40,630 nt of DNA, from positions 1 through 40,630 of the forward strand of contig VGVY01000009.1 in the NCBI GenBank assembly GCA_016873835.1. The letters run 5' to 3'. This stretch comes from Ignavibacteria bacterium. Lineage in GTDB: Bacteria > Bacteroidota > Ignavibacteria > Ignavibacteriales > Melioribacteraceae. Of the stretch, positions 7,010 through 30,957 are shown piece after piece (positions within the stretch are counted from its first letter, which is position 1; every line of letters starts with the position of its first letter). The notes beneath the pieces were generated by a model. It saw only the letters and a program-made list of their open reading frames with translations. It did not search any database and was not told the origin of the DNA. The translations under genes were made by a program, and so were the position numbers.

Positions 7010-7693
7010 ATGAATAATTTTATTTTGAATGCATTTGCCATTACAAAATCTTTTACAAAGATTGACGGACAAAAGTTAGAGATCCTAAAAGGTATTTCTA
7101 TTGACATTGAAGCAAACAATATCTCTATGATTATCGGCGCTTCTGGCGCTGGGAAGAGTACTTTGCTCCATATTCTTAGTGGTTTGGATTTTCCTGACGG
7201 TGGTCAAGTTAAAATTAAAGATGTCGATATTTTTCGGCTGAGTGATGATAAACTTTCTACATTCCGAAACAAGAATATTGGATTTATTTTTCAGTTCCAT
7301 CATTTATTGCCTGAGTTTGATGCAACTGAAAATGTAGCAATTCCGATTATGATAGATGGCAGTCCATTACAAAAAGCAAAAAAGCGTGCTGAAGAGCTGC
7401 TTGAATTAGTTGGTTTAAAAGAAAGACTGCATCATAAACCCTCAGAACTTTCTGGCGGAGAGCAGCAGCGAGTTGCTGTGGCGAGAGCTCTTGCAAATAA
7501 TCCTTCACTAATTTTTGCAGACGAACCTACTGGTAATCTTGACTCAGCAAATAGTGAGATGATTCATAAATTATTTATTGACCTTAAAAACATATTGAAT
7601 CTTACTTTTCTTATTGTTACACACAATTCAGATTTGATAAAACTCGGTGATAAAATTTTCGAAATGAAGGATGGTTTGATTTTTACTAAATAA
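7010..7693 (+). CDS. lolD: LolD-like ABC transporter ATPase
   Basis: Cytoplasmic ATPase that would power the two preceding permeases. At 227 residues it is the normal size for LolD/MacB-type subunits. Visible motifs are Walker [10 protein letters not shown] (43-51), the Q-loop in [12 protein letters not shown], the ABC signature [15 protein letters not shown], Walker [13 protein letters not shown], and the H-loop in IVTHN. The HHLLPEF segment after the Q-loop is a LolD hallmark, which favours lipoprotein release over antibiotic efflux. It is two bases after the second permease. Confidence 0.9.
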
Positions 7694-24964: not shown

Positions 24965-26119
24965 TTATTTTAATACTTCATAAAGAACTTTCAACACTTC
25001 ATCAAGATCTTCATAACTAATTACTAATGGCGGTAATAGTCTTAGTACCGTAGTTCCAGCTGGTAATGAAACGATTCCTTTTTCAAGTAGTTCAATTATT
25101 ACTGGTTGAGATTTATCTTTTAGCTCAATTCCAATCATAAGACCGAGTACACGAATTTCTCTTACTTTAGATAACTCAAAACTTTCTAATTTATTTTTAA
25201 AATATTTTCCCTTTGCTTCAGCTTGTTCCCAAAGTTTTTCTTCCACCATAAATTCAATTGATGCATAACCAGCTGCACAAGCTAATGGATTACCTCCAAA
25301 CGTTGAACCGTGTTTGCTCTTTTCAACTTTAATTTTTTCTGAACAAAGCAAAGCACCCATTGGAAAACCGCCAGCCATTGATTTTGCTATCGTCATCATA
25401 TCGGCTTCTATCCCAACATGCTCAATTGCAAACATTTTTCCAGTTCTGCAAAATCCAGTCTGTATTTCATCTATTATAAGCAAAATCCCATTTTCATCAC
25501 ACAATTTTCGAACTTTTTCAAAATATTCTTTTTGACCTAAATTAATACCTCCTTCACCTTGAACAATTTCTAAAATAATACCGGCTGTATCACTATCAAC
25601 AGCTTCAGCTAACTTTTCAAAATTATTAAAAGGGACGAAAGAAAAACCGGGAACAAGGGGTTCAAAACCTTCACGATATTCTTTTTTAAAAGTAGCACTT
25701 AAGGCGCCGTATGTTCTTCCATGAAATCCTTTCATAGCAGCGATAAATTTCGATTTCTTTGTGTTTAATCTTGCAAATTTAATTGCAGCTTCAATTGCCT
25801 CTGTCCCGGAATTTGTTAGGAATGCTTTTGTTAAATTTCTTGGAGTGATAGAAAAAAGTTTTTCAAGGAATTTTGCTTTTGTGTCGTTGTAAAATGTATT
25901 AGCACAAGTAATAAGTGTCGCTGCTTGATTAGAGATTGCCTCAACTAATTTATCATTCGCATGACCAATATTCGCAACACTAATTCCCGAGGCCATATCG
26001 ATAAATTCCTTTCCATTCTCATCCCAAAGTCGAGCACCTTTCCCCTTAACAATTACTATATCTCTTCTTGGATATACGTCTACTTCGTATTGTTCAATAA
26101 TTGATTTATAGTTACTCAT
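24965..26119 (-). CDS. lysJ: LysW-gamma-L-lysine aminotransferase (LysJ/ArgD family)
   Basis: Class III PLP aminotransferase of 384 residues. In the LysW pathway it transaminates LysW-aminoadipate semialdehyde to LysW-lysine. Visible residues are the phosphate-binding NSGTEAIE (103-110), PLP-stacking GFHGRTYGAL near 131-140, D217 in LLIIDEIQTG, PLP Lys246 in IAKSMAGGFPMGA, and STFGGNPLACAAG. By sequence alone it could be an acetylornithine aminotransferase. Position after lysZ in a cluster with lysW decides the call. It may serve arginine synthesis as well. Confidence 0.85.
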   Translation of the reverse strand: MSNYKSIIEQYEVDVYPRRDIVIVKGKGARLWDENGKEFIDMASGISVANIGHANDKLVEAISNQAATLITCANTFYNDTKAKFLEKLFSITPRNLTKAFLTNSGTEAIEAAIKFARLNTKKSKFIAAMKGFHGRTYGALSATFKKEYREGFEPLVPGFSFVPFNNFEKLAEAVDSDTAGIILEIVQGEGGINLGQKEYFEKVRKLCDENGILLIIDEIQTGFCRTGKMFAIEHVGIEADMMTIAKSMAGGFPMGALLCSEKIKVEKSKHGSTFGGNPLACAAGYASIEFMVEEKLWEQAEAKGKYFKNKLESFELSKVREIRVLGLMIGIELKDKSQPVIIELLEKGIVSLPAGTTVLRLLPPLVISYEDLDEVLKVLYEVLK

Positions 26120-26171: not shown

Positions 26172-26963
26172 TTAAGAAATAATTGTTCCTTTACCATTTA
26201 ATGCGTCATTAATGGGATGCTCTGTTCTTCCGTCAGATAAAATTACAGTTGAATTTCCAGTTTCAAAAAGTTTTTTAAGTGCAAGAATTTTTCTTTTCAT
26301 TCTTCCTTCAACCTTTTTTTCCATTTCATCAAGCTCAGCTTTTGTTAATTTTGGAACTAAAGAATTAGGATCATTTTTATCAAGCAAGAGTCCGGATTCT
26401 TCTATTAAAGAAATTATTTTATCAGCATTGAATTCTTGTTGAAGCAATGCAATTATGTCGTCATTTTCAGAATTTATTGCAAAATTGTTTTCATCAATCA
26501 ATGGTACTGATAATACCGGAATATATCCGTTAACTAAAAGTAGGTTCAACAAGTGCCTATTTACACTTTTTGGTTTCCCAGAAAAATCTCTTACTATTAA
26601 AGTTTTCCCATCTTCACGAATTTTAATTCCAGCATTGCGTTTACCTTGGATCAATTTTCCATCTAATCCAGAAAGACCTACTGCATTTATTCCTTTCTGC
26701 TGACAAAGTTCCACGATTCTTTTATTTCTCAAACCAGCGTAGGACATCATCATCAAATCAATTGTTTCTTCATTACTCAATACTGAGTCATATCCCGAAA
26801 CGGAAGTAACTATTCTTTTGCTGATATTCAATTTTTTTGCTAGTTCATCACGCAATGCATTTGCACCGTGTACAATAATAAATTTTTCATTTAAAGCAGC
26901 TAAATCAGAAATAATTCCATCAATATTAATTCCTTTTCCGCCGCCAATTTTAATTATAAGCAT
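26172..26963 (-). CDS. lysZ: LysW-aminoadipate kinase LysZ (acetylglutamate kinase family)
   Basis: Phosphorylates the side-chain carboxylate of aminoadipate held on LysW. The 263-residue amino-acid-kinase protein starts with IIKIGGGKG and has the phosphate loop IVHGANALRDEL near 34-45 and the GLSGLDG block near 97-103. The segment KRIVTSVSGYDSV near 49-61 resembles LysZ more than ArgB. The ATG has an SD (CGGAG) at good spacing inside the upstream amidotransferase-like gene and overlaps it by 10 bases. Confidence 0.88.
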   Translation of the reverse strand: MLIIKIGGGKGINIDGIISDLAALNEKFIIVHGANALRDELAKKLNISKRIVTSVSGYDSVLSNEETIDLMMMSYAGLRNKRIVELCQQKGINAVGLSGLDGKLIQGKRNAGIKIREDGKTLIVRDFSGKPKSVNRHLLNLLLVNGYIPVLSVPLIDENNFAINSENDDIIALLQQEFNADKIISLIEESGLLLDKNDPNSLVPKLTKAELDEMEKKVEGRMKRKILALKKLFETGNSTVILSDGRTEHPINDALNGKGTIIS

Positions 26964-27598
26964 TTATACTCCGTTAGACTACCTTGTTCAATAGGATTCC
27001 AATCATTATCATTATCAAGCGGCTCTGAGCTGATTATTATATTAGTATCAGAATATTTTTTGTACAAAGTGAAATACTCCGGCTGTTCATTAAAATATGA
27101 ATATACATAAGTTGCATTTTTTTCGGAAAGAATAATATTCATTGCTCGGATATAAGATGATTTAGCGATTATTATTTTAGTTCCTTTTTTAATAGCATCA
27201 AGAATTTTCCCTTTATCAAATCGTTTTATATAATTAAAAATTTTTTCTGCACCAATTCTTCCTTCTTCCTTTATTTTCACACCTTTAAGTTCACCGTTAA
27301 ATATGAATATATACTTATCATCATAGAACGGCATATTGTTTTCAACAACAATTCCTTCATCACGAAACGCACTTCTGGCATGTGCAATTAATCTTGTTGT
27401 TCTACCAAACTTCGAAAAGTCATCTTCCCAGATTGGCAAAATATTTTTATAATGCTGCCATTTATTATCTTTCCAAAAACTGCAGCCCCAACCATGACCT
27501 TGAAATTCTTTGCTTTCAATAGAGATTTTGGAAAACTTTAACAAAAATTCTGCAATTGAAAATTCATGTTTTGAATTGATATAAAGTAATCTACACAT
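26954..27598 (-). CDS. Class II glutamine amidotransferase-like protein (Ntn glutaminase), in the LysW cluster
   Basis: Free-standing Ntn-type glutaminase domain of 214 residues, related to the YafJ/GATase class II family. The start is fixed by the catalytic nucleophile, Cys2 directly after Met1. Other family blocks are GHGWG (34-38), LIAHARSA (70-77, with R75 as the likely glutamine carboxylate-binding Arg), ENNMPF (86-91) and the oxyanion-type FNGEL (100-104). There is no synthase or ammonia-using domain attached. It lies 81 bases after lysY and overlaps lysZ by 10 bases, so it is part of the lysine operon. Its substrate is unknown. Since the local LysW ends in Gln, deamidation of LysW is a testable possibility. 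Confidence 0.82.
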   Translation of the reverse strand: MCRLLYINSKHEFSIAEFLLKFSKISIESKEFQGHGWGCSFWKDNKWQHYKNILPIWEDDFSKFGRTTRLIAHARSAFRDEGIVVENNMPFYDDKYIFIFNGELKGVKIKEEGRIGAEKIFNYIKRFDKGKILDAIKKGTKIIIAKSSYIRAMNIILSEKNATYVYSYFNEQPEYFTLYKKYSDTNIIISSEPLDNDNDWNPIEQGSLTEYKCL

Positions 27599-27679: not shown

Positions 27680-28726
27680 TTAAATTGGATGTAATCCAGA
27701 AAATTCAAGTCCAGTTTTTTCATCAAATCCATGCATAATATTAAACGCTTGCAAAGCTTGTCCAGCAGCACCCTTCATTAAATTATCGATAGCACTAATA
27801 ACTACCAGCCGATTTGAGAATTCATCCTTCTTAAAACCAATGTCACAATAATTTGTACCGAATAATAATTTTGGTTCTGGATAGCGATAAATTCCATCAC
27901 TCTCTTTAACAATTCTAATAAAAGGTTCCTCTCCATAAGAATCGCGGTAAATTTTCCAAATCTCCTTTTCGCTCAAGTTATCTTTTAGAAAAACATGCGA
28001 TGTTGCAAGCAGACCTCTTACCAAATCAATTGCAGTAGCTGAAAAATGTATATTAATTTTTTTATTAAATGATAATTCTTGAATTATTTCTGCGGTATGT
28101 CGATGTTGCGTTGGTGCATAGGATCGAACTACTCCGCTTCTTTCCGGATGATGTGATCCTTCATTAATTTTATTTCCTCCTTCGCTTGAACCAACTTTTA
28201 CTTCAACAACAGTTCTTTCTTCATCAGCTAATCCATTTTTGTATAGAGGATATAATGCCAAAATACTGGCAGTTGCATTACATCCAGCGCTTGAAATATA
28301 ATTTGCGGTTTTCATTTCTGAACGATGAAGTTCTGGAATGCCGTAAACAAATTCTTTCAATAGTTCTGGCCGGGCGTGTTTATGTCCATACCATTTTTCA
28401 TATTCTGATGGATCTGATAATCGGAAATCAGCACTAAGGTCAATTATCTTGGGTGCTAATTTATTAAAAGTATCAATTTTATTTTGAGAACTGTTATGCG
28501 GAAGACACAAAAATAAAAGATCGCATTCTTGAATTTCAGATATTGAACAAAATTTCATTAATGTTGTTTTTCGTAAGTTAGGATGTATTTTATGAATAAA
28601 TTTGCCGGTATTGCTTTCAGAAGTAATTTGTTTTAACTCAACATTTGGATGAAATAGTAGAAGTCTAATCAATTCACCACCGGTATAACCAGAACCTCCT
28701 ACAATTGAGACTCTTATTTTATCCAT
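27680..28726 (-). CDS. lysY: LysW-aminoadipyl-phosphate reductase LysY (ArgC family)
   Basis: NADPH-dependent reductase forming LysW-aminoadipate semialdehyde. It has the N-terminal Rossmann motif GGSGYTGGE (10-18) and catalytic Cys149 in [10 protein letters not shown] longer frame begins at 28741, but the ATG at 28726 has a correctly spaced SD (GAGG) and overlaps lysX by only eight bases, so it is preferred and gives 348 residues. The family also includes N-acetylglutamyl-phosphate reductase, and the cluster context supports LysY. Confidence 0.88.
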
Positions 28727-29570
28727 TATCACCCTCAACAACTTTTAAAACATAATCAACCATTTTTTGAGGAATATTAACTCCGGTTGTGTCAATACTA
28801 TTTTTGTATTCCATTGTATAGTTTACTTCATTAACCATTAATCCATTTGACGTTTCGAATAAATCAATCGCAACTATACCACCTCCAACAGCTTTAGCAG
28901 CTTTTACTGAAATCTCATTCAATTCATCTGATACTACACATTTGGATGCAACACCTCCACGAGCTGTATTTGTAATCCAGTGTGGCGATGTTCTATAAAT
29001 TGCAGCTATGCAATTGTCACCAACAATAAAACTACGAATATCTCTTCCGCTTTTCTCAACATATTTTTGGATATAAAAAATTGAGTGATGATATGAACCT
29101 AAAATTGTTTTGTGTTCTAAAATAGCTTCAGCTGCATCTTTGTCATTTATTTTAGAAAGTAATCTCCCCCAGGAGCCAACTGCCGGTTTGAGAACTACTG
29201 GATATCCCATTTCTTCAATTGCCTTTAGAGCTGATTCTTCAGTGAACGCAACACGAACTTCTGGTTGAGGAACTTTATTTTCGGCTAATGCCACAGAGGT
29301 TAATAATTTATCACCACAGATTGTAGCAACTTTATACGAATTGATGCATTTTATTCCGAAAGATTCATACAATCTTAATGCATGAAGCGCACGTGAGTGG
29401 TTAATACATCTTTCAATTACAACATCAATGTCATAGCTTCCATTTCCCAAACTGAAAGTAATTTCTCTATCGTCCATTAAAACTATTTCAATTCCTTTCC
29501 TTGATCTAAGCTCATCAATAAGAAATTTTTCATCTTTGCGAATTAAAGAATGAAGCAAACCAATTTTCAT
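28719..29570 (-). CDS. lysX: LysW-alpha-aminoadipate ligase LysX (RimK-like ATP-grasp)
   Basis: ATP-grasp ligase that joins the amino group of alpha-aminoadipate (or glutamate, in ArgX-type enzymes) to the C-terminal residue of LysW. The 283-residue protein has an N-terminal pre-ATP-grasp domain, then [14 protein letters not shown] near 127-140, the [15 protein letters not shown] region near 170-184, and metal-binding IDLFET and [11 protein letters not shown] near 248-275. The ATG is preceded by an SD (GGAGG). In known systems the ligase needs a terminal Glu carboxylate on LysW, which conflicts with the Gln end of the local LysW. Confidence 0.9.
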
Positions 29571-29608: not shown

Positions 29609-30766
29609 CTATTTATTGTAAGTTTTGTGATGCTTAACTGCGTCGACGATATGTTTCAATTCGGAAAGGTCTACTGTTCGTCCTCGTTGACCAACGAACT
29701 TAACTTCTTTTAATACTTCCATTTGATGTTCATCATCCATTGATTCTTCTCCAACAAGTTTAAGTGCATATCTTAATGAAGCGATTCCAGACATTTGATC
29801 GAGTGCAAAAGATCTTTCACGACCAAGCAGATTTGGATCTAAACTTTCATAATGCATTGGATTAATCGACGCAGCATGAGTATGTACTCCAGCACAGTGA
29901 GTAAATGCATTTTTACCAGTAATGGGATAATTAGCTGGTATTGGAATTCCTGAATGTTTGCTTACCAGATCATAAAGTTGCGTTAATTTGCTTATGTTCC
30001 ACCTTTGTTCGTTATGATCAACAGAAAGTACAACCAATAACTCAGCAAGATCAACAATACCGGCTCTTTCACCAAGTCCGAGTGCGGCAGCATCAATAAT
30101 ATCTACACCAGCCCGGTAAGCATCTAAGGCATTTGCCAACGCAAGCCCCCTATCATTATGGCAGTGAACTGCAACTTTCGGAAACAATTTTCTCTTTGCA
30201 AATTCATCTTTAAGATTGGATATATAATCATACATACTTCTGTTTGTACCTGGTACCATATAACCAGTAGTATCTGCAACACTTATTATATCAGCACCAG
30301 CTTCAACGGCAGCCGAAGCAGCTTTAACAACATTTTCAAATTGGGAGCGAACTGTATCTTCCGGAGTATAACGAATCAATAAATTTGGTTTTTGACTTTT
30401 AGCATACTTTATTACATCTGTAATCTGAGTTATTGCGGTTTCAAGATCTTTCTTAAAAACAGTTTGAAGTCTTTCATCAGATACACAATAAAATATTCCA
30501 ATAAAATCTACTTCACACTCTAACGCAAGATCAATATCATTTTTAAGAGATCGGGAATGTGCTCCAACAATCGATTTAAAACCTTTTTGTGCTATTGATT
30601 TTACAGCGGCATGAATTTCTGGTGTAACCACTGGATGACCAGCTTCAATGATATCCACACCAATTTCATTTAGAAGATTTGCAATAGCAAGTTTAATGTG
30701 CTTATCAAAATAAACACCAGGAGTTTGTTCTCCTTCGCGCAGAGTTGAATCTAAAACCCAGACCAA
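29609..30766 (-). CDS. Homocitrate synthase (HCS/NifV-LeuA family)
   Basis: Condenses acetyl-CoA with 2-oxoglutarate to homocitrate, the first committed step of the aminoadipate lysine pathway. The 385-residue TIM-barrel enzyme has DSTLREGEQ at 6-14 (metal ligand D6) and HCHNDRG at 201-207 (metal ligands H201 and H203). A TTG start directly abuts the lysW stop and no downstream start would keep the catalytic DSTLREGEQ, so TTG is required. The cluster argues for homocitrate over isopropylmalate or citramalate synthesis. It ends with a TAG stop. Confidence 0.85.
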
Positions 30767-30934
30767 CTACTGACCCCAGTCTTCTTCTTCTTGAGGAGCT
30801 TCATTAAGTTTTGGAGGATCAAGTGAGATTACTTCAAGTTCTGTTCCACACTCAGGGCATTCGAGCAATTCGCCTACTACTGTTCCCTCTTGCAAATTTA
30901 TGCTTGCATCACAAACTGGACATTCAGCTTTCAT
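30767..30934 (-). CDS. lysW: LysW amino-group carrier protein, with C-terminal Gln
   Basis: Small carrier on which alpha-aminoadipate is held during conversion to lysine. The 55-residue acidic protein has two zinc-binding pairs, C5/C8 (CPVC) and C26/C29 (CPEC), and the family's acidic tail. The tail reads EEEDWGQ, whereas the known family ends in EDWGE and uses that Glu side chain for attachment. Codons at the end are GAC TGG GGT CAG TAG. UAG is a normal stop elsewhere in the window (homocitrate synthase, TonB receptor). The ATG at 30934 follows GGAG by a few bases. It is the first gene of the lysine operon. Confidence 0.9.
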   Translation of the reverse strand: MKAECPVCDASINLQEGTVVGELLECPECGTELEVISLDPPKLNEAPQEEEDWGQ

Positions 30935-30957
30935 ATTCACTCCAAAAAAAAGTTTTG

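Follow-up and report, generated by a model that had tools for sequence, protein, structure and literature searches.

A glutaminase-fold gene of LysW operons as the predicted replacement of the lysine-releasing hydrolase LysK

In the described LysW pathways, lysine is freed from the carrier protein LysW by LysK, a hydrolase of the M20 family. A LysW operon in the genome of an Ignavibacteria bacterium, within a stretch of 40,630 nucleotides that was analysed as a whole (the window), has no lysK and contains a gene for a class II glutaminase fold between lysY and lysZ. What does a glutaminase do in such an operon, and which enzyme releases the product? We think it quite likely that the two questions have one answer, and that this gene is a non-orthologous replacement of LysK, predicted from its sequence and context to release lysine from LysW.

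The LysW operon of the window

The operon is encoded on the minus strand in the order lysW, homocitrate-synthase-like gene, lysX, lysY, glutaminase-fold gene, lysZ and lysJ. The lysW gene (30767..30940) scores 76.5 bits with TIGR01206 (cut-off 53.2) and specifies an amino-group carrier protein ending in EDWGQ; the C-terminal Gln57, the carrier attachment residue, is encoded by the CAG codon at 30770..30772, so that the local LysW is indeed Gln-ended, as the original prediction had stated. The homocitrate-synthase-like gene (29609..30766) matches PF00682 and PF22617 and scores 345.9 bits with TIGR02146, below the cut-off of 413.6. It is followed by the LysW ligase gene lysX (28719..29570; TIGR02144, 351.9 bits, cut-off 275.6), a lysY/argC-type reductase gene identified by family searches (27680..28741), the [LysW]-aminoadipate kinase gene lysZ (26172..26963; NF010659, 254.4 bits, cut-off 223) and a lysJ-type aminotransferase gene (24965..26119), which is above cut-off for TIGR00707 and scores 443.7 bits with NF042418, below the cut-off of 700. 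Membership of the LysW pathway is indicated by LysW, LysX and LysZ above their cut-offs together with LysY and LysJ homologues, all in one operon. Whereas in Deinococcus lysJ is followed by lysK, here it is followed by nuo-type genes, which were named by reading their translations and not by family search.

The gene between lysY and lysZ (26954..27598, minus strand) encodes 214 residues beginning MCRLL and overlaps the lysZ open reading frame by 10 bases. The original prediction had described its product as a stand-alone Ntn glutaminase with Cys2, the Arg75 region and an NGEL motif, and the open reading frame, the Pfam match and the AlphaFold model all bear this description out. GATase_4 (PF13230) matches residues 1–114 with 35.7 bits against a cut-off of 23, and a family search of the 214-residue protein finds neither a fused synthase domain nor any LysK-type M20 metallo-hydrolase sequence. 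The model for EgtC (TIGR03442) gives only 54.7 bits, far below its curated cut-off of 218.65, and we therefore rejected membership of that family.

Lysine is the likely product of operons of this type, because many of them include a homocitrate-synthase-like gene and because LysX carries the Asn-Thr signature (ITNTARGG in the window), which marks the aminoadipate-specific type of the ligase (PMC10433800). One relative, L142, has a tandem pair of lysX genes (at 7146 and 8075), the first with WITNTARGA and the second with WIADVSKGA, in which the Asn-Thr signature is lost. The homocitrate synthase gene is missing from some operons, including those of Gammaproteobacteria (SUP05 Thioglobus among them), Binatia and others (for example L127, L130, L116–L118, L125, L126 and L144); L127 has a succinate-glutarate CoA-transferase-like gene just upstream of lysW. 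LysA-like proteins occur in some of the LysX genomes, the window's own included, and are absent from G019, G153 and G187. Because of these operons and the LysA-like proteins, some organisms may make lysine by another route besides LysW; the absence of LysA, being mixed, was dropped as proof of LysW-derived lysine.

Co-occurrence with LysX and the search for LysK

Of the 23 sampled genomes that have LysX, 22 carry the gene, and there is not a single strong match in the 471 genomes without it. Within the window's class (197 genomes) it accompanies LysX in all 18 genomes that have the ligase and is absent from the other 179, with the exception of one weak match (G186, E 1e-6) to an ordinary YafJ-like GATase that has the standard TDSE motif; in the family to which the window belongs, the two genes occur together in 15 genomes and are both missing from five. 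The phylum of a distant relative (G226) gives a similar picture, with strong matches in four of five LysX genomes and in none of 292 others. A LysX genome without the gene is G554 (locus L171), which has a lysW-X-Y-Z-J operon on a contig that ends 29 bases past lysJ, in the place expected for lysK. We looked for LysK-type and glutaminase-type operons mixed within one phylum and saw none in the window's phylum, where all 20 LysX matches fall within the window's class; elsewhere G554, cut by the contig end, is the one possible case. TIGR03442 was discarded as a stand-in for the gene in control genomes, as it is too broad and matches 10 of the 14.

When about 85,000 species genomes were scanned, 244 stretches proved to encode a relative, and we read 80 of these. 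All 80 lie in LysW operons with the arrangement W-(HCS)-X-Y-[gene]-Z-J, or in parts of it cut by contig ends; none has lysK, and no M20 gene is conserved in them. They come from Ignavibacteria, Calditrichota, KSB1, Delta- and Gammaproteobacteria, Binatia, one Planctomycetota record and an archaeon; a few are the same records as genomes in the class sample, and most of the genomes are draft MAGs. Because the same place in the same operon type is kept in every relative read, we regard the placement of the gene as real and not due to chance. The archaeon, GW2011_AR15, is represented by a 1.16 Mb chromosome, in which L148 (3759–12599) has the order lysW-lysS-lysT-lysU-HICDH-lysX-lysY-[gene]-lysZ-lysJ, where lysS, lysT and lysU encode homocitrate synthase and the homoaconitase-type large and small subunits, and HICDH is a dehydrogenase of the homoisocitrate/isopropylmalate type. 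The on-carrier stage of the pathway is thus complete except for LysK, for which we found no candidate anywhere in this genome. The operon is compact and of bacterial type, and was possibly acquired by transfer.

LysK itself, as defined by TIGR01902 above its curated cut-off, was found in none of 234 genomes (0 of 197, 0 of 30 and 0 of 7), 54 of which have LysX or the glutaminase-fold gene. The same model exceeds its cut-off in four of 14 control genomes, and the control organisms with the LysW pathway, Thermus, Deinobacterium, Haloferax and Sulfolobus, all match; we infer that these are the four. Sub-threshold M20 matches to TIGR01902 are present in many of the genomes and are generic, and at E 1e-20 the LysK model hits no M20 protein in G019, G058, G066, G086, G153 and G161, or in 21 of the 30 named genomes. 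The window's genome has no LysK above cut-off, and its best LysK-like M20 protein is YgeY (465 bits); the gene for this YgeY-type hydrolase (L002, 1135–2328) adjoins a carbamoyltransferase-like gene. In L127 an M20-type amidohydrolase gene lies about 3.3 kb upstream of lysW on the opposite strand.

Plasmids provide a further comparison. All eight plasmid LysW/AmCP clusters with enough flanking sequence carry an M20 hydrolase, and no relative of the glutaminase-fold gene was found in the plasmid collection. The Deinococcus plasmid operon, for example, reads HCS-T-U-W-X-Y-Z-J-K and is without the gene. Clusters resembling those for natural products, with LysW/AmCP and an M20 hydrolase, are present on plasmids of Streptomyces, Pseudalkalibacillus and Staphylococcus epidermidis (L187, L189, L190). 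We note also that the Caldithrix abyssi genome paper described the lysine pathway of that organism as maybe incomplete or with non-orthologous displacement.

Predicted fold, active site and release mechanism

The AlphaFold model of the protein has a mean pLDDT of 93. The closest structures are those of EgtC, including one with a bound natural gamma-glutamyl substrate (Z 24.8, rmsd 2.1 Å, 201 residues), followed by the glutaminase domains of GlmS and PurF; Z values to GlmS and EgtC are 20.8–24.8 over 194–201 residues. Cys2 (codon 27593..27595), the predicted catalytic N-terminal nucleophile after removal of the methionine, is invariant in 86 of 86 homologues, as are Arg75 (27374..27376), which aligns with GlmS HTRWATHG and PurF HVRYPTAG and is the equivalent of the Arg that binds the alpha-carboxylate in class II glutaminases, and Asn101-Gly102 (27293..27298), which form the oxyanion hole. 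The main departure is at residue 116 (27251..27253), a glycine in all 86 homologues and an aspartate in all five comparison enzymes (GlmS, PurF, YafJ, EgtC and the G186 homologue). In the GlmS structures this aspartate (Asp123) lies where the alpha-amino group of glutamine is bound. A glycine at this position would suit a substrate with an alpha-amino group already engaged in a peptide bond, which is the case for the C-terminal residue of LysW. Ten Lys or Arg positions are at least 90% conserved among the homologues; by analogy with other enzymes of the LysW pathway, whose positive charges hold the acidic tail of LysW (PMC9303977), these could bind the EEEDWG tail.

In LysW-gamma-lysine, the C-terminal Glu of LysW carries lysine on its gamma-carboxyl, bound through the lysine amino group (PMC10433800; PMC9303977). 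The original prediction had remarked that the pathway has no glutamine-dependent step, which takes account neither of LysW-gamma-lysine being itself a gamma-glutamyl amide nor of the absence of LysK here. A class II fold suits the release step because this amide has a free alpha-carboxylate and is of the bond type cut by EgtC and by Dug2-Dug3. In the LysW pathway the amino group of aminoadipate is coupled to the gamma-carboxyl of the terminal Glu, and conversion on the carrier gives LysW-gamma-lysine. We propose that Cys2 would then attack the gamma-glutamyl isopeptide bond, freeing lysine and leaving a gamma-thioester with the LysW terminus, which water would resolve to give LysW-Glu ready for the next round. 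During this reaction Arg75 would anchor the terminal residue by its free alpha-carboxylate, Gly116 would give space to the peptide bond in which the alpha-amino group of that residue is engaged, and the conserved Lys and Arg residues could contact the acidic tail. The proposal draws on operon context, co-occurrence, the lack of a recognisable LysK, the predicted fold and the residue substitution, and it extends by prediction to the substrate, the chemistry, tail binding and a deamidating side activity.

The known systems closest to this proposal each share one part of it. EgtC (gamma-glutamyl-hercynylcysteine-sulfoxide amidohydrolase; PDB 4zfj/4zfk/4zfl; TIGR03442), the best structural match, is likewise a stand-alone class II Ntn enzyme with Cys2, the Arg and Asn-Gly, and it hydrolyses a gamma-glutamyl amide, the type of bond proposed for the window protein; however, the two are only about 20% identical, EgtC still has, in place of Gly116, the Asp suited to a free alpha-amino group, and it belongs to a different operon. 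LysK ([LysW]-lysine/ornithine hydrolase, M20, TIGR01902) performs in the same pathway the reaction proposed here, but it is a metallo-hydrolase of unrelated fold and chemistry rather than a Cys Ntn hydrolase, and its Deinococcus gene has a different place from the window gene. Dug3, which acts with Dug2 in yeast glutathione cleavage, is a class II GATase that cuts a gamma-glutamyl peptide bond (PMC6508711), although it is eukaryotic, needs Dug2, and has a small-molecule substrate with a free alpha-amino group. YafJ/GATase_4 and the glutaminase domains of GlmS and PurF share the fold, the catalytic Cys, the Arg and Asn-Gly, but keep the T/S-D-S/T-E motif with its Asp and have no linkage to LysW. 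A literature search limited to open-licence papers found none that links LysW with a glutaminase-fold enzyme. It counts against the proposal that, to our knowledge, no described class II Ntn enzyme has a protein C-terminus as its substrate.

Carrier tails and alternative readings

The original prediction was that the gene product could deamidate the terminal Gln of LysW, in which case the gene should track Gln-ended carriers. A phylogenetic profile does not agree: in the 62 operons in which both genes could be read, LysW ends in Glu in 46 and in Gln in 16, and most close relatives of the window are Glu-ended. The Gln-ended carriers are those of the window and of L054, L056, L088, L095, L097, L098, L101, L111, L114, L116, L117, L121, L135, L138 and L147, and on the LysX tree the end has switched between Glu and Gln at least nine times, three of these changes being forced by well-supported branches. 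Because 46 of the 62 are Glu-ended, the gene is not tied to Gln-ended LysW, and we rejected on this tally the reading that it is a deamidase only; a dedicated deamidase, converting the encoded Gln to Glu, would also leave the release step without an enzyme, and is very unlikely even though the window's own LysW and the recurrence of Gln ends speak for it. What stands of the original prediction is the site of action, since the gamma-amide of the terminal residue is very probably what the enzyme acts on, with Arg75 placed for the free alpha-carboxylate and the blocked amino group tolerated at Gly116; deamidation of an encoded Gln as the reason for the gene does not stand. Carriers from M20/LysK-type systems or solved LysW structures are all Glu-ended (12 of 12, two Streptomyces sequences being identical), a contrast with the 16 of 62 that is suggestive, and for which the sample is too small to decide, but which fits an enzyme that tolerates and repairs Gln ends. 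A Gln-ended LysW also presents a gamma-amide, and the same active site could deamidate it to Glu before its first use, so that deamidation may be a candidate second activity of the same enzyme. More tentatively, and with somewhat less than even confidence, we suggest that one Ntn hydrolase serves both ends of the cycle, deamidating Gln-ended LysW and then releasing lysine from the same residue in each round.

Other readings would leave the release of lysine to a different enzyme or give the fold a different task. The protein might be an editing hydrolase that strips wrongly loaded amino acids off LysW while another hydrolase, such as a generic M20 protein, releases lysine; some LysX enzymes take both aminoadipate and glutamate (PMC10433800), and the generic M20 proteins noted above could in principle act as LysK. 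We consider this improbable, given the genomes in which the LysK model finds no M20 protein at E 1e-20, the want of a conserved M20 gene in the operon, and YgeY as the best M20 of the window's genome. The original prediction had also offered ammonia supply to another enzyme or a regulatory glutaminase; the protein would then be an amidotransferase partner or a glutamine sensor, and the class II fold with its catalytic Cys, Arg and Asn-Gly is what such a protein would have. However, the residue that would bind the alpha-amino group of free glutamine is a Gly in every member, and family searches and the loci of the relatives reveal no ammonia-using step or partner synthase in the window's operon or in related ones, which makes this reading highly improbable. 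It is scarcely credible that the protein is a transamidase, passing a gamma-thioester formed from LysW-Gln to aminoadipate and so bypassing the ATP-dependent LysX: the related Dug2-Dug3 complex can transfer gamma-glutamyl groups (PMC6508711), but LysX with conserved motifs lies beside the gene wherever the contig is long enough, and a Glu-ended LysW, the commoner form, has no amide to exchange.

We thus favor replacement of LysK. What is new is that, in a known pathway, a new class II Ntn subfamily appears to have taken over the release step, with a function that is predicted. In these organisms the LysK model used for annotation finds no LysK, and annotation of the gene goes no further than a generic amidotransferase. 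If the prediction is correct, it would fill the missing lysine step in up to a few hundred sequenced species of many phyla, cultured Ignavibacteria and marine SUP05-type bacteria among them, and it would give a clear-cut example in which one fold has taken the place of an unrelated one, with the glutaminase fold re-aimed at a protein C-terminus through loss of a single Asp. If the dual role is also true, the enzyme that releases the product could also create the attachment residue of LysW after translation, and the terminal codon of LysW would be free to change between Glu and Gln in any lineage where LysK has given way to this enzyme.
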